From a virus: a stretch of DNA of 54,111 nucleotides. Made by a program: the position numbers and the translations under genes. Below, one piece after another: positions 2,227 through 33,754 of this stretch. The notes below the pieces were generated by a model, which made no database searches, had not been told where the DNA came from, and saw only the letters and a program-made list of their open reading frames with translations. The first letter of the stretch is position 1. Each line of letters starts with the position of its first letter. The stretch is from positions 1-54,111 of IMG/VR virus record IMGVR_UViG_3300020160_000355. One strand, written 5' to 3'.

Positions 2227-3102
2227 ATGCAACCGACAACACTATCTAGCAAAGCAATGCTGGTCAAGCTGACAGTACGCCGAGCAAACTTAACACGCCG
2301 TGACATTACGGCTGAGCTCATTATTCAGAATCAGATGGATGACACATCATTGGTCGTCAACCGCAAACTGTTTCGTGACAAGCTCAACCCCATCAACCGC
2401 ATCATGCAGGTGGCATCGGAGGTTTACACCTATCACAAGGCGCACACGCTGGCATACATTGATAAAGGCCCACGGCTGTTACCCAACGCACAGTACATGG
2501 ACTACACATCAGAAATGCGCCAACGCATCCAAGCAGTAGACGACATGCTCGACAAGTACATGCCTGACTACGATAACTATGTGCAGCTTGACATCAAGGC
2601 TCGTGCATTGGGTAACACAGGCACGGCTCGCGTTGAGGACTATCCAACTGCTGATGAGTTCCGTAGCAAGATGGGCTTCGACTTGCGCTTCACTCCACTG
2701 CCTGATGCTAAGCACTTCTTGTTCGACATTAGTGATGCAGACATGGCTGAGTTCAACGCATCAATGGAGCAGGTTGCACAGGGCGCTCGTGCTGAGGTTA
2801 TCAAGGGCATGCTCGAACCATTGCAACACTTGGTTGAAAAGCTCAACAAACCCATCGGTACTGAGGGCGCTATCTTCCGTGACACTGCGGTAGAGAACGT
2901 AGTCGAGGGCTTACGTCGTGCTAAGGCACTCAACGTCAACAGCGATGCTGATGTGGATGCAATGGCTGACACACTGATGGAGGCTGTGAAGATGTATGAC
3001 TTCAACAAGGACATCTTGCGTGAGTCACCAGTAGTCCGTGAGCAAGCGGCTATCAAACTCGACGAGATTGCCAAGAAGATGGCTGCGTATGGATTGGGTT
3101 GA
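2227..3102 (+). CDS. DUF3150-like protein
   Basis: A 291-residue, mostly helical protein with a strong AGGAGG ribosome site. Its opening (SSKAMLVKLTVRRANLTRRD) and overall length and helix pattern fit my memory of the DUF3150 family, which occurs next to MoxR ATPases and VWA-type genes in phages and plasmids. Here it lies between a MoxR gene and a metallopeptidase/VWA-like gene, which strengthens the assignment. Its biochemical role is unknown; the context suggests a substrate or adaptor of the ATPase module. A profile search would settle the family. Confidence 0.55.
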   Translation: MQPTTLSSKAMLVKLTVRRANLTRRDITAELIIQNQMDDTSLVVNRKLFRDKLNPINRIMQVASEVYTYHKAHTLAYIDKGPRLLPNAQYMDYTSEMRQRIQAVDDMLDKYMPDYDNYVQLDIKARALGNTGTARVEDYPTADEFRSKMGFDLRFTPLPDAKHFLFDISDADMAEFNASMEQVAQGARAEVIKGMLEPLQHLVEKLNKPIGTEGAIFRDTAVENVVEGLRRAKALNVNSDADVDAMADTLMEAVKMYDFNKDILRESPVVREQAAIKLDEIAKKMAAYGLG

Positions 3103-20862: not shown

Positions 20863-23800
20863 TTAGATAATGTTCTTTACAAATTCTTTGTTGGACTTGC
20901 TAGTCTCCACACCTTCAACCACCCCAGCTTCTCGCTTGCGGGCAGCCACAGTGGCTTTAAACAACTCCGACATTGGTTGAATTTTATACCCATTGCGCTT
21001 ACGAGAAGCCTGTAATTCTTCCCAGTCCTTGCGGGCTTCAGCCATACCTTCAGTGTCACCATCGCGGTTAGCGTTGACATACGCACCTTTGATGGAAGCA
21101 GCGCGCTCCGTGTAGAACTGGTCAAACTCCATTGTCACCTTCTGGGCATATTGGCGGCCAGTAATCGTAGTCGTTGGCAGGCCAACAGCTTGGAACGCGG
21201 CATCCACCATGCTAATTTCTTCAGGCTTCAAGACTACATCGCCGTTGCGCATAGTCACACCTTCGTTGGCGTAGCGGACGCCCTTCATCGCATTGCCGAT
21301 ACCGTTGGGCATCAACAATTCCAGACCCTTGTAGTATTCACCCTTGGTCATCATGCCCGCGCCGTCGATCATCTTGGGGGCTAAGCCACCGAAGAATGGG
21401 CCCATCAAACCGACCATCACCTTTTCGTAGCCAGAGCGAGTGGACAAGTCCACATCAGTGAATGGCAGGATAGAAGCGACGTTACCCATACCCAACTTGC
21501 CGCCAAGGTTCACACCAGCCGCAGCAGGCACACCATTCAGGAGCAGATTGGCCATGGTCTCATCGCCAATGGCTTGACGCAGTTTGTACTCGAGGTCTTT
21601 TGGTTCATCATCGTCACCGAACGCGGCCAGCATCAAGCTAGCAACCTGTTGCACAAATGGCACACCAAGTGCACCGCCAACCACGGCCATGTGACCTGTG
21701 ATGAAAGCTAGAGCACGTCGAGCCACAACACGTTCCTCAGGACCTGCACCCTTGAAGGCTGTGTTGATGAGCTTGCCCAGCATAGAGAGCTGGATGATTT
21801 GGAAGCGCTTGAACTGACCGACCAAGCGGCCAGCGTCAGAGTTCAGGATACGTGGCGTGTTGAAACCATCGTACGAGCCGTGAGTGTTGGACACCACTTC
21901 GGCGGCAAACTTGGTAGCAGCATCAGTATTGCCAGCGCCGTAGCGTTGGATGTATCCACGGTAGGCAGCAATTGCAGCCGTTGCACGGTTTACAGCTTCA
22001 ATGCGGTTGTTCACACCTTGGAGTTTGCGCATTACTGTGTTCAGCACATTGTGCTCACCGGCACGAGCCTTAGCGTCAGCGTCGATACCAATGTCAATCT
22101 TGCCCATACCGACCAAGGTCTGGAGCATGGCGCGGACGTCAGCTGGAGCCTTGGCAAAGTCGATGTGCTCGTTGATAGTCAAGCCTTTAACCATTGCGGC
22201 CACATCACCGTACGCAGCTTTGATAGCGCGGACAGAGCGGAAGTAACCGAGACGGCCAGACATGTACGGCAGAGACAGCACAGTGGTTTGCAGCAACTGT
22301 TGCAGGTAGAACGCAGGGCTAGTGGACAGGAACCACACAGAGGTGGCCTGAGTCAGCGCTTGGCTCAATGGGGATGGAGTCTTGTACTCAAGGCTGGCAG
22401 TTTGGCGCTTGTACAGCTCGTTGTACAGCGGCATAGCCTCACGGACGTTCCGCTTGGCTTCAGTGCGCATGCGCTCAAGAGAATCCACCACGTCATCGTT
22501 ATGCTTCATGGTGCTCAGGAAATGAGCATCGGCTCGGCCAGATGTGGCCAAGTTACGCATCATGTTGGCGTTTGCACCGGACACATACTTGCGCATGATT
22601 TCCGATTTGCGGGCGCTGTTCTCAGCAGCAGTCATCAGATACAAGTCTGACACCATGCGATCTAGTTCAGCGTTACCCTCACCACTTTCGCCTTCTTGGC
22701 GAGCAATCAAGTTGCGCAGGCGGGCCACAGCAAGGTGAACATCAGAGCCAATGAAGGAACCAATATCTTCTTTGGGGCCAGCCTCAGAGCCGTCCATGTC
22801 GAACTTGCCAGTGGCCATGAGGTCCGCAGCAATTTGGTCAGCCTCACCTTGGGTCTCGGCAAACTGCACGACGTAGTGGTCAGGGTTAGAAACGTTGTCG
22901 GCCAACCATGCGGCGGCTCGCTCCTTGTTCTCACCCTTCTCAGCAGCAACACCTTCCCAGTACTTGAACTCCGCAGACTTAGCAGCCACCACGTAGTCGC
23001 CGTAACGACCGAGGTAAGCGTAAGGTGTGGTGAAGTCCACGTTCTGGATTTTGCTCAACTGGGTGCGCATCAGCTTCTTAGCCTGTGCCACTTCGGCCAT
23101 CAGGTCAGCGTCGCCATCAGCAGCCTTGGCGCGTTCGGCGAACTCGCGTTCAACCGCAGCATCAATAGCTTCCTTCTTAGCTTTGAGGGCTTGGTAGCCA
23201 TGCTCAAACACATCACGGATAACCTGTGCAGCCGCTGGAGACTCTTGCTCAATCGCAAAGAAGCGACGGCTCAACTCAGGGTCGACTTCAAACAAGGTTG
23301 TGCCGATGCGGTGTTCACCGGGATAGAAGCCCCACTTCTTACTCATGGTGGAGTCCAAGATGAAGCGGTTCACGCTACCAGCACCCTCACCTTGGAGGTG
23401 CTTAGGCAACTTGTCGAACGCATCCAAGATGTGCTCAATGCGTTGTTCAAAATCAAGGCGCGTCTTCTGGCGAGCATACTGTGCAGTCAGGTAGTCCTGA
23501 GCAGAGCGCATGTACTTACCAGCCATGTTGACGATGTCTTCAGTGATGCCAGCAGCCAGCAAACCGTTCTTAGCCGCAGTGGCCAAGTTGGTGATTACAG
23601 ATTTAGCAGGCTTCACCACCGAAGCGGGAAGCGTGTTCTCTAGGCCTTCGTTCAAGCGGGTAGACATTGACTTGCCAAAACGCATGCGGTCTTTATCCGC
23701 AGCAACTTGACCCCCCACTCGGAAGATGTTCTTGTCGTTGAACACCACGAGGTTGCGAGTTGGGTTACTCAGCTTAAGAATGCGTTTCTTGTCCTGCTCA

Positions 23801-26800
23801 ATTTCTTGGCGGAGCATTTCCACCGCAAACTCAGATGACGTGCGGCGGGCAACAGCAGCCAACCATGATGTATTCGCCTCGTCTTTGTACTGAGCAGGTG
23901 CGGTAGCGCTTTTCTTTTCCCATTTATCGGCGTACTCAGTATCCTGCGCCAATGTCCGTTCTTTTTCTTTGAGCAGTTCTTGCTTGTTTTTGAGGTTTGC
24001 CTCAGCAAACGTGACATCCCCACGGCTGTTCTGGTCTAAGAACTTGAGCGCAGGGATACCAATCTTCTCGTCCAAGTATGTGGACACAATTTGTTTTGTA
24101 CCAGCGCCGCGAAGGCGGCTGTTGTAGTCTTCTACCTCAAACTGCTCGCTAATAAGTCCTGAGCGTTTTTCCAAGACTCCGAGGGCGCGATAGAGCTCTT
24201 CGCCTGTCAGCTCGTCAAGCGATGCGTTGAGTTCATCTTCCAGTTCGGTGCGGATGGACTCACTCATGTTATCAACCAACCGTCTGAGGACGGCTGGCTG
24301 TTTTGTAAGAAGGGTGTTCCAGTCAAGAATGTCTTGGTCTTCGACTCCAACGTCGACGCGCATGAGGCTACCCTCAGGACGAGCCGTTTCATAGAACCAG
24401 TATGGGCGGCCAATTTGCAGAATTCGAGCTTGGCGATCAATCTCGGCCATGCTTAAAGGCTCATCAGTCCCTAGCTTTTCTTTTGCCCATGCATTGGCTT
24501 TTTCTAGGGTTTCAGCATCAGTACGAAGTGCCTTTGTATTTGCTTTGCGATCTACATCGTCAGCCCAGTACCCTTTGGCAACGCCAGCAGCTTGCGCAAG
24601 GTAGGAACCCCAACCAAACGCCTGTCTGCCTTCACCAGTACTCATAAACTTATGGCTAAATTTACGGAACGCAGCAGCCGTACCATGGTATGTGCCAGCC
24701 ATTTCTAGACGAGCCGCGCCAAACGCCATGTCCACTACGTCACGAGCAGTCATAGCCTCAGGACTAAAGCCTAACTTACGAACAGCAGCCTTAAATGCGG
24801 CCCACAAAGTGCGGAACCATAGATGGAGTGGGCCAATCGTTTTTGGAGCAGCCGTTGGGTCAATACCCATTTGCACTGCTTCCTCGATGAAGTACGCCAA
24901 CATCTCAGAACGACGGTCTTCTTGGACGGTGCCAGCGTTCATCACGCGCTCCGCAGCACGGACAGCTAACACTGACTCAATCGAGTTCTCGCCCTGCTTA
25001 GCCCAATTTACAATTTGCTGGGTAAGCTTGTCATACATTGCTTTAGGCAATAGATTCTCTAAGCCGACGTGAGCGCCGACTTCGTGCATGAACTTAGCAC
25101 GTCCTTGCCCTTTTTCAATTCGATTGGCTACTAGGTAAGCTCGGCCATTGCTAGCAACGCCATAAGCGCCCTCAATAGCCATCACTGCCCCAAGTTTCTG
25201 CACAGTCGGGTCAGTTGAACGGACAAGGGCTTCAATAGACTCAACCACCACCAGCTTACGAGCTGGAATAGGAGTGCGGATGAAGTCTTCAATTTCCTTA
25301 GTTAGCTCGGCGGAGGTGTAAGGATTCTTAGCACGGGCGTCGATACCAAATAAGGTCTTTTCTTCCTTACCAACGATGTTGCGCTCAGTGGATGCTTGAG
25401 TAACACCTTGGCGATTACCTGTAGTAGTCGTGGTCACGGGTTGGACCGACTGGCGAACCAGCTTGTCTTCACCGGTCTTGTTCTGGGCTACTGCACCAGT
25501 AACGAAGTCCATCACACGTTCTTGGTTGTCTGGCACAACGAACAGCTTAGCGCCGTCCATTTGTTGGCCGTAGTTGTCAATCAAGTTCTTGTATGTAGCC
25601 TTGTCCACGTTGATACAACCAAACGAGTAGCGCGAATCAGCAGCGTTCTCGTTCTTCAAGGCAGCGGTGCGCTTGGCGGCGTCATTCTCGTGGAGCCACA
25701 CGGAGTGCATGATGGTCAGTACACCGGGGTTCTCATCCACGATGCCAAACACCTTACCGAAATCGTACTCGCCAGCAGTCTTAGCCGCAGCGCCACCCTT
25801 GGCCGCATCCACCATTACGAGGTTGTGCAGACCAGCGGGAGTAACGCGGTTGGTTGGCAGGTCGTTGTTGCCTTTATAGAAGTCGCCCTTGGCCAAACCA
25901 AACAGAGATTTCTTCTCCAAGACCAGCTTGCCATCAGGTGTGAACACGAAGATACGGCCACTTGGCTTGTCAGCCATAACCAACAGCTTGTTCTTGGCGG
26001 TCAGGTCGGCCTTCAATGCAGGCATCAAAGTAGCGTAGGCTTGCTTAGCCGCAGTAGACATCTTGGCCGCAGCCTCCGCTGGAGCCTCAGCCTTCACCTC
26101 TTGGGTTACGCTGTATTCTTGCGCTGGGCTGACAGTGAACGCCTCAACCTTGTTCATGTATGTTGGGTTGAACACCACAGCCACAGCCAGCACGGCTGTG
26201 TAAAGTGCTTTGACGATGTCACGGATAGCTGCGTGAACCGCAGCAGCACCCTTGGCGGCATAGAGAGCGATGTCTCCGTGCAGCTTGGTCAGGAACTCAG
26301 ATGTGCCACGCTTAGCGTCATAGTGCTTCTCAAGGCGGATTGTCTGGCCTTCTGTCAGCTCGCTGACTGGGCCTTCCACCAAAACAGTCTGCTCTGGGGT
26401 CAGCTCCGTGGCCATACCTACATTGGATTCAGTTACCGCTTCAGTAGTTCCAACAGTGCTTGGTGCTTCCACGGGCTGCTCTTTGACAGCAGTATTAAGA
26501 ATCTTGTCGGCAGCCGCGAGATTAGCCACGCCACGATTTGCGACATCATCCCAGCGAATCTTTGCATCTTTGCTCAGGCTTTCGTAAGAAGGCATTGCAG
26601 GGAACTGCGCAGCCAGCTCAGCCCACTGTTCAGCGGGCGTCTTGATTACTTCTTCTTGCTTGGGCTCGACTTTGGCTTCGCTTTCGGTGGCAGCTTGGCC
26701 CCCTTCGGTGTTTCCTTGGCCCACCGTTTCGCTACTTCCGGCTCGTTCTTGAACAGGTACTTGCGCTGGGCTTGGCTCTTGAACGGCATTGGTCGGCTCC

Positions 26801-29800
26801 GTAGTGGTTGTGCGGCTGGCCATCTCAGCGTCGAGCTTCTTGGCCAGTGCTACGTTTTTAAACTTGTTGGCTTCATCCAGCAGTAACTGGAGCTCGCCCA
26901 TGTCGAACTTGGTCAGGTCGCCCTTAGTCTCTTTGAACTTGGCTTTCACAGCCTTGACTTCATCAGAGGCTTCGTTCTTTGTAGCAGTCGCAGTAGCGGT
27001 CGACTCACCAGCTGAAGCAGCAGCAAACTCTGCACGAGCGGCATCCAACTGAGTAAACAGCTTGACCTTCAATGCAGCATCTTGGTCAGTCATCTCGCTA
27101 GGCTTAGGCAGGTTGGCCAGCGCAGCTTCCAATGTACGAACGTGGTACTTGGCGTACTCAATGTTGAGTTGCTTCTGGATAGCGGCACGGCCTTCTACGT
27201 CGTCGGCAGCCAGCTTACCCATCTGGGTTTGCAGCTTCTCAATCTTGCCAAGGTCGGCTTTACGTTGTGTTTCCACTGCACCTTGACTACCGCCAGCAGA
27301 GGCCACTGTGCCCATGCTCTTGCCTTCTTGTTCCTCGCCACCATACAACTCGTCAGACAAGTACTTCGTGTTGTCAAAGTCTTGGCTCTCACCTTCAAAC
27401 TCAGCACGTTGCTGGTCGGAGATGGAGTCTTTCAGTGTGATGACACGGCGCGGAGTAACCAGCTCGAGCAGGTCACGGCGAGGGATACCTTGCGGGAACT
27501 CAGGCGATGTGTACGCATCCGCAGCACGTTGGAACAGAACATCCAGACGTTCGTACTGCTTAATTTTTCCGTTGCGTTGTACTTCTGGTTTTGGAGTCAC
27601 GCACTCATACTGTTCACTAGCAGCATCGTATGTAGCCGCGAGCCTAGAGACTGAGCGAGCGCGGTCTTCTGGAGTCACATCAGCAGTGATGCTGTCGGAC
27701 AGATACTTAGCTTGAGCAGCTTGTTTCTGTTCTTTGGATGGACGGGCAACGCCTTCCACCGTAACGTCTTCAACTCCAGCCAGAGCCTCGGCGGAGATAC
27801 CGAGGCGTTCAGCAATGGCAGCTCGGGTATCAAGGTTAGCCTGAGAATACTGTGGGCGCATCACAACACCCAAACGGCGAAGCTGGGCATCCACAGTGGT
27901 TAAGGACAGGCCGGTCAGTGCAGCAATTTCTGCCTCACTGGCTTGCTCAATCAGAGCAAGGCGCACCATCTCAATACGCTGTTCAAGCGTAGCCCCGCCT
28001 CGTTTTTCCTGAGTGGGGGTTAGAACCTGACGGTACAGGTTAGAGAGGATGTCGCCATCATGCTCTATTTTTTCAACGCTGGCGGCGGGGACTGCTTCTG
28101 TAGTTCCACCAGTTGTTGATGGAACGCTGACATCGGCGACTTGACCTGTTTGACCGGATACTTGCCCGCCATCACCCAGCCCTGTGGTAGTTTGGGTTTG
28201 TCCATCTGTGGCCCCGCTTACTTGCGGCGTGGCTTCGCCACCGACAACATTGGGTACATCTCCGGCGCTTGGCCGTACTCCGCCTGTTGATGGCTGTCCA
28301 GCTTGGACGTCAGACGGTCCCGCTCCGACACTTGTTGCTCCGACGGGTTGAACTTGAGCGGGTCGTACATCCCCAGCTGCTCCAGAGACTGCTTCTGTTG
28401 TTCCGCCTTCGACTGGTACTGTTCCCAGCCCGGTAGTTGTTTGCAATTGCAATTTGTCATTCTTAGCTCCTTTTGGTTGGACTTGCTGAGCAGCAGCATA
28501 GGCAGGGGCTTCCTGTCCAGTCAGTGCTTCGTACATCTGCGCCATCTGAGTCAGCTTGGCGTCGTTTGTGCCTTTACCCGCAGCAACCAGTTCGGTCATT
28601 GCAGTGTTGATGCCCTCGGCTACAGCGGCGAGGTCAGACTTGTTTGTCCAGAATTTCAGCGCCCCACCTTGGACGGCAGCAAGTTTGCGCTTCTCTGCGG
28701 GGAGTGTCTGCATATATGCAGCTTCAACCTTACGGCGCAGTTCAGATTTCTGGTCTTCGTTAGCAGCCAGCTTGTCTAGCTCGGCGTTGTACTTGGCGGG
28801 GTCGGTGAATGCCTTACCCATAATCATGCCGCCCACATGCTGGCCGTTGTCCAAAGTGGGTTCTGCACCAAAGTACGCGGCTACAGTATCGCGGCGCTCT
28901 TGCAATGCTTGAGCTTGTTGAGCTTGTTGGTCGGCAACCTGTTGGGCCTGCTGGTCAGCTTGTGCTTGTTGTTGAGCGGCGGCAATGTCTGTCGTACCGC
29001 CTGAGACTGCGGGAGCAGCAGGGGGGACTTGTTGTCCAGAGCTAACAGCGTCTGTAGTTGTAGGTGTGATTTCCGCAGGAGCAACTGGAGCGGATACCGG
29101 TGGGACAAACTGAGTTGTTGTGATGTCCGGCTGAGTAGTAGCTTTTGCCCCCATAGCCTGAGACAGCTCATTGCCACCTTCCGAACGACGCCATCCACCG
29201 CCGAGGCCACCAGCCATGCCACCTAAGGCAGCACCACCAATGAAGGACTCTTTGAACCGCTCTTGTGCAGCAGCACTGAGGAAAGCTTCGTTGGCGTCAA
29301 CCGACATACGACCAACTTGGTTGAGCATCTCTTGGCCAGTTTCAGAAGCACCTTCTTTAAGGGCTACACCAGTTGCAGTTGCAGCAGTACGAGCCGCAGC
29401 GCCGGTCAGGCCAGTACCACGGTCAAGAATGTTTACTGTGTTCTTAAAGGCAGTGCCACGAGCCAATGCAGACTCAATACCAACAGCGTTCAGTGCAGCG
29501 TACGGTACAGCTAAGGCAGCAGCGACACCACCACGGGTCTCACCAGATTGCTCACGTTGGTTGCCAAGAACATCGCCAACAGCAGATGGATAGGAGGCAG
29601 CAACAGCACCAGCTTGGGAGCCGGCGTTGAGCGCCTTAGTGGCGGCAGCTACACCCTCGACGTCTTTAGCCGCAGTTGCGGCAGTTAGCGCAGCACGAGT
29701 ACCGGACATAGCGCCACGGGCAAGTGCACCTCCAGCGATAGCCTCAGCTGCATAAGGGAGTGACTGGATAGCCAAACCTTTTGCGTAGCTACCGAAGTCG

Positions 29801-30144
29801 CCGACACCATGAACGTCTTTCCACTGGTCAACAGCGCCTAAGTCGCGTGCTCGTTTGGAAGCCTTATCAGCAAGGAACTCATTCTCTTCGCGCTGGGTTT
29901 TTAGCCATTCAGCGGAATCTTTAGCGCCGACACCTTCAGCGACAGCTTCGCCAACGCCATAAAGGCCGGCTTGGTATCGGTCGATGGAAGAAGAAATCTG
30001 GCTAGAGGTAAGTCCAGCCTGTGGCTTTGGGTTGAAATGCTCTTGCTCTAAGTCATCCCAGATGTTGGAAGAAGCTGGCTTTTCGTCCTTCTTCTTTTTC
30101 TCGGAGAACAGGTCGCGTTCGTACTCATCCCAAATATTAGCCAT
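20863..30144 (-). CDS. Giant polyvalent virion protein (3,093 aa)
   Basis: By position and size, an ejected internal virion protein like T7 gp16 but over twice its length. The N-terminus repeats a short motif (NIWDEYERDLF, NIWDDLEQEHF), then Ala/Gly-rich amphipathic helices (90-320) and Pro/Gln-rich linkers. A helix-turn-helix-like segment lies near 728-760. A hydrophobic helix near 1,320 precedes an L,D-transpeptidase-like domain (about 1,370-1,555, nucleophile Cys1510 in YSFGCINV). A zincin-like motif HEVGAH is at 1,687-1,692. An ART-PolyVal domain (1,815-2,140) starts YHGTAAAF and includes TGEGRQAFGWGSYL. The C-terminal third is helical with hydrophobic stretches (about 2,590-2,660, 2,810-2,845), like PLxRFG-type proteins. 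It likely opens the envelope, enters with DNA and acts on host targets. Confidence 0.8.
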   Translation of the reverse strand: MANIWDEYERDLFSEKKKKDEKPASSNIWDDLEQEHFNPKPQAGLTSSQISSSIDRYQAGLYGVGEAVAEGVGAKDSAEWLKTQREENEFLADKASKRARDLGAVDQWKDVHGVGDFGSYAKGLAIQSLPYAAEAIAGGALARGAMSGTRAALTAATAAKDVEGVAAATKALNAGSQAGAVAASYPSAVGDVLGNQREQSGETRGGVAAALAVPYAALNAVGIESALARGTAFKNTVNILDRGTGLTGAAARTAATATGVALKEGASETGQEMLNQVGRMSVDANEAFLSAAAQERFKESFIGGAALGGMAGGLGGGWRRSEGGNELSQAMGAKATTQPDITTTQFVPPVSAPVAPAEITPTTTDAVSSGQQVPPAAPAVSGGTTDIAAAQQQAQADQQAQQVADQQAQQAQALQERRDTVAAYFGAEPTLDNGQHVGGMIMGKAFTDPAKYNAELDKLAANEDQKSELRRKVEAAYMQTLPAEKRKLAAVQGGALKFWTNKSDLAAVAEGINTAMTELVAAGKGTNDAKLTQMAQMYEALTGQEAPAYAAAQQVQPKGAKNDKLQLQTTTGLGTVPVEGGTTEAVSGAAGDVRPAQVQPVGATSVGAGPSDVQAGQPSTGGVRPSAGDVPNVVGGEATPQVSGATDGQTQTTTGLGDGGQVSGQTGQVADVSVPSTTGGTTEAVPAASVEKIEHDGDILSNLYRQVLTPTQEKRGGATLEQRIEMVRLALIEQASEAEIAALTGLSLTTVDAQLRRLGVVMRPQYSQANLDTRAAIAERLGISAEALAGVEDVTVEGVARPSKEQKQAAQAKYLSDSITADVTPEDRARSVSRLAATYDAASEQYECVTPKPEVQRNGKIKQYERLDVLFQRAADAYTSPEFPQGIPRRDLLELVTPRRVITLKDSISDQQRAEFEGESQDFDNTKYLSDELYGGEEQEGKSMGTVASAGGSQGAVETQRKADLGKIEKLQTQMGKLAADDVEGRAAIQKQLNIEYAKYHVRTLEAALANLPKPSEMTDQDAALKVKLFTQLDAARAEFAAASAGESTATATATKNEASDEVKAVKAKFKETKGDLTKFDMGELQLLLDEANKFKNVALAKKLDAEMASRTTTTEPTNAVQEPSPAQVPVQERAGSSETVGQGNTEGGQAATESEAKVEPKQEEVIKTPAEQWAELAAQFPAMPSYESLSKDAKIRWDDVANRGVANLAAADKILNTAVKEQPVEAPSTVGTTEAVTESNVGMATELTPEQTVLVEGPVSELTEGQTIRLEKHYDAKRGTSEFLTKLHGDIALYAAKGAAAVHAAIRDIVKALYTAVLAVAVVFNPTYMNKVEAFTVSPAQEYSVTQEVKAEAPAEAAAKMSTAAKQAYATLMPALKADLTAKNKLLVMADKPSGRIFVFTPDGKLVLEKKSLFGLAKGDFYKGNNDLPTNRVTPAGLHNLVMVDAAKGGAAAKTAGEYDFGKVFGIVDENPGVLTIMHSVWLHENDAAKRTAALKNENAADSRYSFGCINVDKATYKNLIDNYGQQMDGAKLFVVPDNQERVMDFVTGAVAQNKTGEDKLVRQSVQPVTTTTTGNRQGVTQASTERNIVGKEEKTLFGIDARAKNPYTSAELTKEIEDFIRTPIPARKLVVVESIEALVRSTDPTVQKLGAVMAIEGAYGVASNGRAYLVANRIEKGQGRAKFMHEVGAHVGLENLLPKAMYDKLTQQIVNWAKQGENSIESVLAVRAAERVMNAGTVQEDRRSEMLAYFIEEAVQMGIDPTAAPKTIGPLHLWFRTLWAAFKAAVRKLGFSPEAMTARDVVDMAFGAARLEMAGTYHGTAAAFRKFSHKFMSTGEGRQAFGWGSYLAQAAGVAKGYWADDVDRKANTKALRTDAETLEKANAWAKEKLGTDEPLSMAEIDRQARILQIGRPYWFYETARPEGSLMRVDVGVEDQDILDWNTLLTKQPAVLRRLVDNMSESIRTELEDELNASLDELTGEELYRALGVLEKRSGLISEQFEVEDYNSRLRGAGTKQIVSTYLDEKIGIPALKFLDQNSRGDVTFAEANLKNKQELLKEKERTLAQDTEYADKWEKKSATAPAQYKDEANTSWLAAVARRTSSEFAVEMLRQEIEQDKKRILKLSNPTRNLVVFNDKNIFRVGGQVAADKDRMRFGKSMSTRLNEGLENTLPASVVKPAKSVITNLATAAKNGLLAAGITEDIVNMAGKYMRSAQDYLTAQYARQKTRLDFEQRIEHILDAFDKLPKHLQGEGAGSVNRFILDSTMSKKWGFYPGEHRIGTTLFEVDPELSRRFFAIEQESPAAAQVIRDVFEHGYQALKAKKEAIDAAVEREFAERAKAADGDADLMAEVAQAKKLMRTQLSKIQNVDFTTPYAYLGRYGDYVVAAKSAEFKYWEGVAAEKGENKERAAAWLADNVSNPDHYVVQFAETQGEADQIAADLMATGKFDMDGSEAGPKEDIGSFIGSDVHLAVARLRNLIARQEGESGEGNAELDRMVSDLYLMTAAENSARKSEIMRKYVSGANANMMRNLATSGRADAHFLSTMKHNDDVVDSLERMRTEAKRNVREAMPLYNELYKRQTASLEYKTPSPLSQALTQATSVWFLSTSPAFYLQQLLQTTVLSLPYMSGRLGYFRSVRAIKAAYGDVAAMVKGLTINEHIDFAKAPADVRAMLQTLVGMGKIDIGIDADAKARAGEHNVLNTVMRKLQGVNNRIEAVNRATAAIAAYRGYIQRYGAGNTDAATKFAAEVVSNTHGSYDGFNTPRILNSDAGRLVGQFKRFQIIQLSMLGKLINTAFKGAGPEERVVARRALAFITGHMAVVGGALGVPFVQQVASLMLAAFGDDDEPKDLEYKLRQAIGDETMANLLLNGVPAAAGVNLGGKLGMGNVASILPFTDVDLSTRSGYEKVMVGLMGPFFGGLAPKMIDGAGMMTKGEYYKGLELLMPNGIGNAMKGVRYANEGVTMRNGDVVLKPEEISMVDAAFQAVGLPTTTITGRQYAQKVTMEFDQFYTERAASIKGAYVNANRDGDTEGMAEARKDWEELQASRKRNGYKIQPMSELFKATVAARKREAGVVEGVETSKSNKEFVKNII

Positions 30145-30150
30145 GATTTC

Positions 30151-31770
30151 TTATCCCCCGCGATTCTGTAACGGAGCGTTAAGTATAGCTTTGTTCCGAG
30201 CCGCAGTCTCAGCTTCTTGCTCACGTTTCTTACGAGCTTCTTCAATATCGCGGGCTTCCCGCTCAGCCTTCATGCGAGCAGCTTCGGCTTTCTGCTTTTC
30301 TTGCCACGGTAACGCAGTCTTTGGCTTTGTCTCAGCCTTAGTTTCTGGCTTCGTCTCAGACTTATCCTTAGGAATAGCACTATCAGGCTTCTTAACCCAA
30401 GTGAGGTCAGCTTTGTCTACCTTGGATGCAGGATACTTCTTGTTGAAGTCAGCAATCAATTTGTCTGCGGCGGTTGGGTCAAAGGCTTTACCTGTCTGTG
30501 GGTTGATACCACTTGTGATAGCGTCAGCCAAAGCTTGGGGAGCCACGCCGTTCTCAGCAAAGAAAGCTTCTTTCTGCTTATTGAGCTCAGCTGCGGTAGC
30601 CCCGGGGTTAGCCTTGACGATTTCTAGTCGAGTTTTTGCCCAGTCCTGCTCAACGGATGAACGAGCGTCCTTGCTAGCCATGATGCGGTAAGCGGCAGCC
30701 AAATCTGTTGCAGCGCCGTCATCCACCATCTGTTGGGCAATAGCAGCCTTACCTGCCGCACTACCTCCAGCGCCACCAGCGCCACGGTTCGAGTACATGT
30801 TTGCAGCGCCGTAGTTCTTAGCGATTTCGGATGGAGCGACGGCCTCTTTGACCTTGACACCGCGTTCAGCAATATCAATTTCTTGGCGTTTCTGCTGGAA
30901 GGAGATGACGTCACTAGCGTTCTTGAACATGCCCTTCTTCACCAAAGAATCGGCGAAGCCATGGGTGTAGTGTTGTGCAAGGGCAGCGTCAATCTTGGCA
31001 GGCATCTCGCGGACATCAAACTTGTCGACAGTCTTACCGCCATGCTGTAGAACCACTTGGCCGCCAACAACTTTGACATCTTGGCCTGTCAGCTCTTTCA
31101 GCTTAGAGCCATACTCAGACACAACGCCAGACGCACCTTTCTCTGCCAATGTACGCTCGAGGTTGCCTTTGAGGTCTGTGATTTCTCGGTTCCACTTGTC
31201 TTTTGCGACATCGAAATCTTCGTTGAACTTTTGATCGCGACGACCTGCTTGCACAGTCATCTGTTTGGATTCAACGTCCAATGCCCGCTCAGGATTGATA
31301 CCGCGCACTTTAGCTAGGTAGTCTGTGTCGGCCTGCTCACGGGTATAAGCAGTGGGCTTCATACCAGCAGCGTCAGCTTGGGCTTTCTGCCAAGTAGCTG
31401 CATCGTCCGTTGGGATTCCAGCGCGAGCGCCTTCAACACGAGCTTTGTTCTCAAGGGCAACAGCTGCGGCAGACTGATTTACTGCGCGATCAAAATCGTC
31501 ACCACCTGCACCAGTGTTGACTGAGCCGATACCGCGACCAGCTAAACGCTCCATCTCTGGGCCGTAGTCTTGTCCGCCAACTTTGCCATATGTGTCCGTA
31601 GCAGCAGATTTGAGCGCAGCGCGTTCTTCGCCAGCAGCCTTCATCTCTTGAGCCTGAAGAGCAATCAGCTCATCCCGCTTCTTCTGCGACTCGATGGCTT
31701 CCATCATTTGGTATGTCTCCATACCGCCCTTGGCTAAACCGCCAGCAAACGCACCAAAATTAAATCCCAT
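30151..31770 (-). CDS. Internal virion protein, helical (539 aa)
   Basis: Start at 31,770 (MGFNFGAFAGGLAKGGMETY) is set by GGAGG upstream; a longer frame exists but lacks a site. After a Gly-rich hydrophobic head, the protein is almost wholly helical and charged (QKKRDELIALQAQEMKAA), ending in a Lys/Glu/Arg-rich coil (KQKAEAARMKAEREARDIEE). It lies directly upstream of the giant protein with six bases between. Position, length and helical character match the middle internal core protein of short-tailed phages (gp15-like), probably part of the ejection machine. Confidence 0.65.
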   Translation of the reverse strand: MGFNFGAFAGGLAKGGMETYQMMEAIESQKKRDELIALQAQEMKAAGEERAALKSAATDTYGKVGGQDYGPEMERLAGRGIGSVNTGAGGDDFDRAVNQSAAAVALENKARVEGARAGIPTDDAATWQKAQADAAGMKPTAYTREQADTDYLAKVRGINPERALDVESKQMTVQAGRRDQKFNEDFDVAKDKWNREITDLKGNLERTLAEKGASGVVSEYGSKLKELTGQDVKVVGGQVVLQHGGKTVDKFDVREMPAKIDAALAQHYTHGFADSLVKKGMFKNASDVISFQQKRQEIDIAERGVKVKEAVAPSEIAKNYGAANMYSNRGAGGAGGSAAGKAAIAQQMVDDGAATDLAAAYRIMASKDARSSVEQDWAKTRLEIVKANPGATAAELNKQKEAFFAENGVAPQALADAITSGINPQTGKAFDPTAADKLIADFNKKYPASKVDKADLTWVKKPDSAIPKDKSETKPETKAETKPKTALPWQEKQKAEAARMKAEREARDIEEARKKREQEAETAARNKAILNAPLQNRGG

Positions 31771-32506
31771 GATTTTCCTCCGCGAGCAAGGCGCGTACGC
31801 CACTCATTTGTTCAGTTACCGCATTATCAATCTGTTTGAGCAGCGCCACAACTTGGACGTGCTTCTCTGGATGGTTCGCCTTGATATAGTTCATCCGGTC
31901 TTTGCTGTGGTTGCAGTATGCAGTGCAGTTCCAACAGTCCAATGATGAATGAGCCATGCTTAGACGGCCCTCTACTTCTACACCTTCAGTTTGTAGGAAG
32001 GCCAGCACTTCTTGGTGGGTCCATGCTTCCAATGGGAATACATGCTCGACACCATCTTCAACAAAGCCGGACGCTACAGGAGCGCCGTGTGACTCGTCAG
32101 CACGTTGGCCGCGAATAACAGCGGTCACTCCGAGTTCCTTAATTGCATTGCGGGCAGGCACCCAGATGTTCTCAGAGCAGCACTCCATATAGTTGCGCAG
32201 CATGAGAGGCTTGGCTGTATTGGAATACTCTTGCCCGTGCTTGGTGTAGTCCACTGGAACGACGTCCACTGGGTAGCCGCTAGCTGCAATAGAAGCAGGC
32301 TGGTCGGACACCACACGAATCAGGTTCGGCAGGCGAAGCGCCAGCATGGCTTCTTCAATCTCAGGGAAGTTGGCTTGGGTATCCACCCAGACGACGTAAG
32401 CCTTATCCAGATACTCCTTGGCCAAGTAAAGGCAGGCAAGGGAATCCTTGCCACCTGAGTACATCAGCGCAACTTTCTCGTGGCGGGCGAATACGTCAGC
32501 CAGCAT
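31760..32506 (-). CDS. PAPS-reductase-like (PP-loop) enzyme
   Basis: 248 residues starting at the ATG at 32,506, one base after the previous stop; the upstream open frame is a shadow of that gene. It has the PP-loop MYSGGKDSLACLYLA (SGGKDS 17-22), a Cys pair (C109, C110) and a C-terminal CWNCTAYC (C191, C194, C198) that could hold an Fe-S or zinc site. This is the PAPS reductase/DndC-like fold, which activates with ATP or handles sulfur. Phage members are linked to sulfur metabolism or nucleic-acid thio-modification. Unusually, it is encoded among internal virion genes and overlaps one by 11 bases. Confidence 0.75.
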   Translation of the reverse strand: MLADVFARHEKVALMYSGGKDSLACLYLAKEYLDKAYVVWVDTQANFPEIEEAMLALRLPNLIRVVSDQPASIAASGYPVDVVPVDYTKHGQEYSNTAKPLMLRNYMECCSENIWVPARNAIKELGVTAVIRGQRADESHGAPVASGFVEDGVEHVFPLEAWTHQEVLAFLQTEGVEVEGRLSMAHSSLDCWNCTAYCNHSKDRMNYIKANHPEKHVQVVALLKQIDNAVTEQMSGVRALLAEENHGI

Positions 32507-33337: not shown

Positions 33338-33754
33338 TTAACTCCTAATCCACTTGCATTCAGATTTGAGCATGCCGTACAGGATAGCGTCTTCCCCATC
33401 CTCGAACGCTTCGCGGAGTACACCCTCTTGGATGAACCCTACATGCTCGTCAAATTTTCTAGCTACGCTGTTGCTTGCCCGAACTAGCCCAGTGACACGA
33501 CGGCACTTGAGCTGCACGAACGGATAAGCAAAGAACGCATACATAAACTCTTTGGAGGTCCAGCGTTTGCCGGGTGTCGCCGCTACGTTCATACAGACAG
33601 CTGCTCCGGTGTACATGTTGTATGCCACACCAGCAATCAGCTCTCCGTCTTCCTCAATCCCAATGGCCACGTTGGCATCGTCTAGGTTCTCGCCAATACG
33701 CTCAGCAACCCAGTTACGAACACGCTCGTCTTGGCCATATACCAGAATTTTCAT
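33338..33754 (-). CDS. GNAT-family acetyltransferase
   Basis: 138 residues with a GNAT pattern: NVAIGIEEDGELIAGVAYN (beta strands), a long helix, then LVRASNSVARKFDEHVGFIQEGVLRE, matching the N-x-x-A/S-x-x-x-x-x-x-x-G-F segment of the acetyl-CoA binding fold, and YGML at the end. Such N-acetyltransferases are frequent in phage structural operons between tail and internal proteins; substrates are not established. It could modify a virion or host protein. Confidence 0.75.
   Translation of the reverse strand: MKILVYGQDERVRNWVAERIGENLDDANVAIGIEEDGELIAGVAYNMYTGAAVCMNVAATPGKRWTSKEFMYAFFAYPFVQLKCRRVTGLVRASNSVARKFDEHVGFIQEGVLREAFEDGEDAILYGMLKSECKWIRS

Follow-up and report, generated by a model that had tools for sequence, protein, structure and literature searches.

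A giant PLxRFG-type polyvalent protein with constant ends and exchanged effector cassettes as a putative podophage ejection protein

The window, i.e. the whole 54,111-base IMG/VR virus record analysed here, carries a single 3,093-codon gene (P0001) whose product belongs by its sequence to the known PLxRFG, or large-polyvalent-protein, kind. Across its relatives the two ends of the protein are constant and the centre is exchanged as cassettes, and this exchange is fast. In our view the giant is likely the biggest of the ejection ('core') proteins of its podophage, with conserved ends, a gp16-like chassis and swappable effector cassettes between them. Giant PLxRFG proteins take up as much as a fifth of the genome in many podophages and are not known to have a tested function. 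Two features of the exchanged centre are new: an L,D-transpeptidase (LDT) cassette that is absent from the published list of polyvalent cargo (main text, PMC5512222), and a link, seen in the sequences, between zincin class and a boundary peptide.

A late gene with constant ends and an exchanged centre

The initial annotation had described one giant gene occupying about 17% of the window; the single ORF is present and takes up 17.2% of the record, with its strand now corrected to minus (Table 1). Scanning IMG/VR with an alignment of the C-terminus yielded 48 loci with giant ORFs (about 47 related giants), and the intact giants, 41 including that of the window, range from 2,082 to 3,130 amino acids. 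The giant ORF is no assembly accident: an equivalent ORF stands at the corresponding place in the relative L001 (2,509 aa, ~88-90% identical at both ends) and in about 45 other contigs, and these syntenic contigs rule out a chimeric assembly as its origin. The terminase of the virus has no close cultured relative (the best match, at 41%, is to Pseudomonas phage Rollin). A C-terminus similar to that of P0001 occurs in the cultured Klebsiella phages LASTA, SJM3 and ZX1, Agrobacterium phage Atu_ph08, Pseudomonas phages F116 and H66 and Erwinia phage Pavtok. PADLOC returned no result for P0001.

Table 1. Positions of the giant gene, its regions and its upstream neighbours in the window.
Feature	Position	Strand	Basis or remark
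Giant polyvalent protein P0001, 3,093 aa	20863..30144	minus	uninterrupted ORF, homologues
N-terminal chassis, residues 41-328, Gly/Ala-rich	29161..30024	minus	~90% identical in nearest relative
HTH slot, residues 719-757	27874..27990	minus	HTH_23; swapped between L015 and L018
LDT cassette leader, residues 1263-1326	26167..26358	minus	holds the protein's most hydrophobic stretch, 1307-1325
L,D-transpeptidase (YkuD-fold), residues 1375-1545	25510..26022	minus	H1480, C1510 in SFGCIN
Bracket peptide LFGI, residues 1598-1601, ahead of zincin	25342..25353	minus	
HExxxH zincin-like metallopeptidase, residues 1602-1800	24745..25341	minus	HEVGAH 1687-1692, E1747
ADP-ribosyltransferase (HYD type), residues 1801-2150	23695..24744	minus	H1820, Y1848, D2037
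Bracket peptide RFGK, residues 2155-2158, cargo/chassis junction	23671..23682	minus	
C-terminal helical chassis, residues 2155-3093	20866..23682	minus	NF032893 at 2426-3059
QFKRF motif, residues 2777-2781	21802..21816	minus	aligns with QFKSF of T7 gp16
Gene preceding giant, ~539 aa from its first ATG (550-aa gene)	30151..31770	minus	T7 gp15 position
Virion structural protein, 275 aa	32508..33335	minus	phrog_8003, 4e-28
Internal virion protein, 609 aa	33964..35793	minus	phrog_511, 5e-142

In all related loci the giant is the last late gene, and a convergent 1,012-aa gene of replication type (assigned by sequence motif) lies downstream of it in 47 of the 48, the exception falling at a contig end. 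Virion-type genes stand upstream in most of the 48 loci, and the two genes preceding the giant encode about 250-350 and then about 410-760 aa in nearly all of them, a succession that resembles the 14-15-16 order of T7 in position. In the window, the gene preceding the giant had no family match in profile searches. Two internal-virion-type genes had been placed upstream of the giant, and both are there, the phrog_8003 type also being kept upstream in most loci; neither is immediately adjacent, the next gene being the one without a family match, and genes for a PAPS reductase and a GNAT-like protein lie in between. The PAPS-reductase-like gene (PF01507, 7e-20; 31760-32503, minus strand, ORF listed to 32629) sits among the internal virion genes and has no match at the equivalent position in any of the 48 related loci, and the GNAT-like acyltransferase gene (phrog_4470, 5e-46; 33338-33754, minus strand) sits inside the virion gene block, and most relatives have a counterpart about equally far upstream of their giant.

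The place of the gene, its virion-type neighbours and a weak fold match to the T7 and PhiM1 ejection core (below) lead us to infer that the giant is probably present in the virion and ejected with the DNA. A late-expressed cytoplasmic protein that never enters the virion, e.g. a host-takeover or lysis-timing factor, would also suit the end of a late operon, a place where accessory genes might accumulate. However, the position behind the virion genes is kept across 40+ contigs, the C-terminus is of the tail-700 family and bears a weak resemblance to ejection core folds, and the homologues in Pseudomonas phages H66 and 8P carry the depositor annotation 'structural protein', all of which makes a purely cytoplasmic giant very improbable.

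The kinship with PLxRFG and polyvalent proteins proposed at the outset is borne out by the C-terminus, which far exceeds the cut-off of NCBIfam NF032893 (tail-700, PLxRFG; 296.1 bits against 100, model positions 26-656 of 681), and by the occurrence of HTH, zincin and ADP-ribosyltransferase (ART) in one polypeptide. Polyvalent proteins combine at least two unrelated activities of a known set, and P0001 has an HTH, an HExxxH zincin and an HYD ART. A lack of profile or fold matches, which would have spoken against the proposed domains, did not come about: the five regions that had been named (HTH, LDT, zincin, ART and helical C-terminus) were each recovered, in that order, by profile, fold or catalytic residues. 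The order had also been called unusual, which needs qualifying: LDT-zincin-ART is found in at least seven giants including that of the window, and is one state among rapidly reshuffled cassettes.

The C-terminal ~640 residues also match several giant PHROGs, including phrog_10089, 'DarB-like antirestriction' (6e-55), and other relatives of the C-terminus are annotated as DarB-like, methylase or Snf2 helicase. Such labels would fit a head-internal protein of the DarB/Ddr type, lying loose in the head and injected for genome protection or establishment with no part in an entry channel; DarB was located in the P1 head by Iyer et al. (PMC5512222). Yet DarB is an adenine methylase fused to an SF2 helicase, and no methylase or helicase domain was found in P0001 by Pfam or among the matches listed for the centres of 40 relatives, so the DarB label of P0001 derives solely from the shared chassis. 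With the tail-700 chassis as the only shared part, and with the giant gene last in a T7-like order of internal virion proteins, we regard a DarB-type role as unlikely and favour an ejection core protein.

Comparison with the nearest relative displays the contrast between ends and centre: identity is ~90% over the first 350 residues and ~88% over residues 2150-3093, whereas it falls to 10-60% in the centre, where the relative lacks the LDT block. The N-terminal chassis is recognized in about two-thirds of the intact giants. The pair L015 and L018 is closer still, with ends 97-98% identical and a 358-aa block with the LDT cassette in L015 only; identity directly beside the block is 95% and 99%, and the HTH slot and one ART stretch vary independently. 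On a tree of the chassis the LDT label requires 13 changes (at least 12 of them forced by supported branches) against a mean of 12.7 for shuffled labels, and therefore carries no phylogenetic signal. In a further pair, L009 and L010, the LDT region is 100% identical (residues ~901-1200 of P0005) and most of the remaining sequence is 40-60% identical, a pattern that we read as a recent cassette transfer.

The HTH_23 match in P0001 scores 26.2 bits when the segment is scanned alone (cut-off 24.6) and 17.8 bits in the whole protein. This DNA-binding slot (residues ~650-880) varies among relatives, with Sigma70_r4 in eight of 40, KORA in three and ParB_N in two; PcrA_UvrD_tudor matches occur somewhere in the centre of 10 of the 40.

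The L,D-transpeptidase cassette

The LDT cassette joins a membrane-like leader of ~64 residues, with the pattern LE[KQ]HYxAK...AIRxIIK..., to a YkuD-type enzyme domain. The L,D-TRANSPEPTIDASE domain scores under the Pfam cut-off (YkuD, PF03734; 19.0 bits, 2e-3, cut-off 23.4). An AF2 model of residues 1255-2150 gives the LDT core a pLDDT of mostly 80-96, and this core aligns with LDTs (VIA-align) at Z 10-11 over 115-138 residues and 2.3-3.6 Å. Its fold neighbours are Helicobacter pylori Csd6 and Campylobacter jejuni Pgp2 (both at Z ~11), LdtMt2 and Bacillus subtilis YkuD, where Z differences of <1 are ties, so that Csd6 and Pgp2 rank level with the mycobacterial LDTs and YkuD. Both Csd6 and Pgp2 belong to the L,D-carboxypeptidases. 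All 18 LDT copies retain the catalytic His and the motif S-x-G-C-[IV]-N (His, Ser, Gly, Cys, Asn), and dN/dS is ~0.04 (five comparable pairs); the domain is under purifying selection.

The cassette is absent from 28 of the 41 intact giants and is distributed independently of zincin class (p 0.74). Pfam searches of the giants and of the upstream virion genes found no substitute peptidoglycan enzyme in the phages that lack it, nor any in the other group, a negative result for functional replacement of the LDT by another peptidoglycan hydrolase. Given its absence from so many giants and the lack of a substitute in these searches, the LDT is no general requirement for entry, and the role of an accessory matched to the host is the likelier one.

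The same leader and LDT also occur in a 3,368-3,374-aa protein that combines LPD38, ART-PolyVal and GNAT-like domains with an unrelated chassis (L071:5102-15208; LPD38 scores 129.5 and ART-PolyVal 75.2, above Pfam cut-offs of 27 and 31.2). Since leader and LDT are here joined to another C-terminus, the cassette moves between different polyvalent chassis. No copy was found in the collection of cultured phages, where matches were weak and partial (E 0.01 or worse), and none in 84,980 bacterial and archaeal genomes, although the latter were scanned with short peptide patterns and the result is thus no strong absence. The founding paper on polyvalent proteins names lysozyme, SpoIID-like and DD-peptidase domains as their peptidoglycan enzymes, and the word 'transpeptidase' has 0 occurrences in its main text (PMC5512222).

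The turnover of the cassette bears on a further explanation, namely that LDT and ART are anti-competitor or superinfection-exclusion effectors, which would block other phages by altering the envelope or host proteins once the phage has entered. Very fast turnover without phylogenetic signal is typical of conflict genes, and the T6SS effector Tlde1a provides a precedent for an LDT fold delivered as a periplasmic weapon (PMC9638812). The cassette is, however, fused to a putative virion protein, and as only the few copies from one particle would be available, early action fits better than lasting exclusion; we therefore consider exclusion distinctly unlikely. An LDT acting at entry would instead have the periplasm as its place of action and the stem peptides of peptidoglycan, or lipoprotein bound to it, as its targets, and by analogy may occupy the role of the lytic transglycosylase of T7 gp16 or the endolysin-like insert of PhiM1. 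LDT as cargo would point to L,D cross-links, or to links between lipoprotein and peptidoglycan, as a barrier or target in phage entry.

Zincin, ADP-ribosyltransferase and boundary peptides

An HExxH or HExxxH motif is present in all 41 intact giants, against an expectation of 0.019 per protein. Within the HExxxH class, a variant already described for polyvalent proteins (PMC5512222), residues equivalent to H1687, E1688, H1692 and the downstream E1747 are kept in 20 of 20. The predicted ART that follows retains its triad in the relatives (H1820 in 19 of 19, Y1848 in 19 of 19, D2037 in 18 of 18), and such an H-Y-D triad is the signature of polyvalent ARTs, which are defined by a His in strand 1, a Tyr in strand 2 and an Asp in strand 5 (PMC5512222). 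ART-PolyVal (PF18760) matches the P0001 segment at 21.5 bits (4e-4), under the gathering score of 31.2, and matches 14 of 40 relatives at E up to 0.05 (best 9e-6). The cargo profile had one match among PDB sequences, PARP12 (E 0.56), aligned exactly at the HGT...YGxGxY motifs. The combined model of residues 1255-2150 gave no zincin or ART fold match, which is no evidence of absence. In that model a long hairpin of helices (residues ~2044-2126, ~23767-24015; model 790-872) breaks into the ART ahead of its final strand; it resembles the coiled-coil hairpins of membrane-fusion proteins such as HlyD and MacA in shape only.

HExxxH zincin and ART are tightly linked: 18 giants have both, two the zincin only, none the ART only and 21 neither (Fisher p 9e-10). 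The block is bracketed by short peptides. Among the 22 HExxxH giants a [KRQL][FY][GS]x peptide, mostly KFGK, is found where the zincin starts in 19 and at the chassis junction in 21, as opposed to 0 of 25 HExxH giants at the junction (p 2e-12), counts that are inflated by shared descent of the block and that refer to a pattern selected after viewing the sequences. The peptide may serve for processing, mark a joint of recombination, or do both. A search for an FS[KR]-type boundary motif common to all giants led to its rejection, the broader [KRQL][FY][GS]x pattern holding for the HExxxH class only. Of the HExxH class, L005 (identical to L014) has ERLAS[KR]SxSF on either side of its zincin block (residues ~1355 and 1600) and L051 has a similar LASRS pair; a repeat bracketing the zincin was found in these only and is not general across the class.

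The zincin would probably sever cargo from chassis, as has been suggested for polyvalent proteins in general. A bolder proposal, possible if on balance doubtful, would make the PLxRFG giants ejectosome proteins that process themselves, with zincin and cut sites as a matched exchangeable unit, the HExxxH type cutting K-F-G-K-like brackets and the HExxH type another junction, with the LDT swapped to match host cross-linking. Were this so, the giants would be a modular, protease-programmed toolkit delivered via the phage tail. Natural near-isogenic pairs with and without the LDT cassette, together with the class-specific bracket peptides, offer ready tests of exchange and of the proposed self-processing.

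The helical chassis and comparison with known systems

The chassis is helical in its AF2 model (residues 2140-3093; 47 sequences, pLDDT 73, pTM 0.62). Foldseek against viral models returned large polyvalent proteins as the top named matches (E 1e-57 to 1e-20); a further match, at 1e-5, was to the 'internal virion protein D' of CRP-4. The best two of 854 aligned PDB chains were T7 gp16 (9jyy_I, Z 7.9, 230 residues) and the PhiM1 ejectosome (8vb2_A, Z 7.4, 237 residues), a weak match at Z values that helical proteins reach by chance; the third chain had 105 aligned residues. By hhalign, the chassis and six gp16 homologues align with P 0.04-0.065, not significant alone, placing GRLVGQFKRFQ on GKMVMQFKSFT, and in this register QF[KR]xF is shared by 47 of 47 chassis and six of six gp16 homologues; the PhiM1 core protein is without the motif. 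The two registers disagree, with model position 547 on T7 1275 in the fold alignment and 637 on T7 1107 in the motif alignment. A search of PDB sequences with the chassis profile did not return gp16, only chance coiled-coil matches (influenza HA2, E 0.01). We treat a kinship of the chassis with gp16 as likely, though still putative; such a link would make the role of the giants a direct question for cryo-EM, proteomics and genetics.

For an ejection core protein the following course may be pictured. The giant would probably be packaged within the head next to the portal and driven out through the tail on infection, and HTH and ART, judged by their families, would have DNA and host proteins as their targets once in the cytoplasm.

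Among known systems, the PLxRFG/tail-700 phages (Klebsiella LASTA, SJM3, SopranoGao and ZX1) have in common with P0001 the C-terminal 640 residues, the giant size (495 kDa in Lastavirus) and one of the largest portions of the genome (PMC9505181), but their proteins match P0001 in the C-terminus only, at 20-30% identity. The polyvalent proteins of Iyer et al. (2017; PMC5512222) have the HEXXXH zincin, the HYD ART, HTH/ParB-like slots, a late virion context and extreme domain shuffling in common with these giants, and differ in that the LDT is missing from that paper's main text and LPD38 was not found in P0001. Csd6 and Pgp2 share the YkuD fold and the catalytic His and Cys with the LDT, and Tlde1a is the precedent for a delivered LDT fold, whereas the predicted enzyme of P0001 is embedded in a much larger phage polypeptide and has a leader of its own.

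A further comparison is with T7 gp16 and the top ejection protein of PhiM1. Where the peptidoglycan is highly cross-linked, the T7 genome depends for its entry on the N-terminal transglycosylase of gp16, and the C-terminal part of gp16 is believed to get as far as the cytoplasm (PMC8954989); the PhiM1 protein has an insert resembling an endolysin (PMC11440229). The giant is 2.3 times larger, adds zincin, ART and HTH cargo and has an LDT instead of a transglycosylase, and its homology to these proteins is putative at the level of sequence. In common with them it is the last and largest gene among the putative internal virion genes and has a predicted peptidoglycan enzyme attached, and it shows weak similarity to their helical cores, with QF[KR]xF common to the T7 group.
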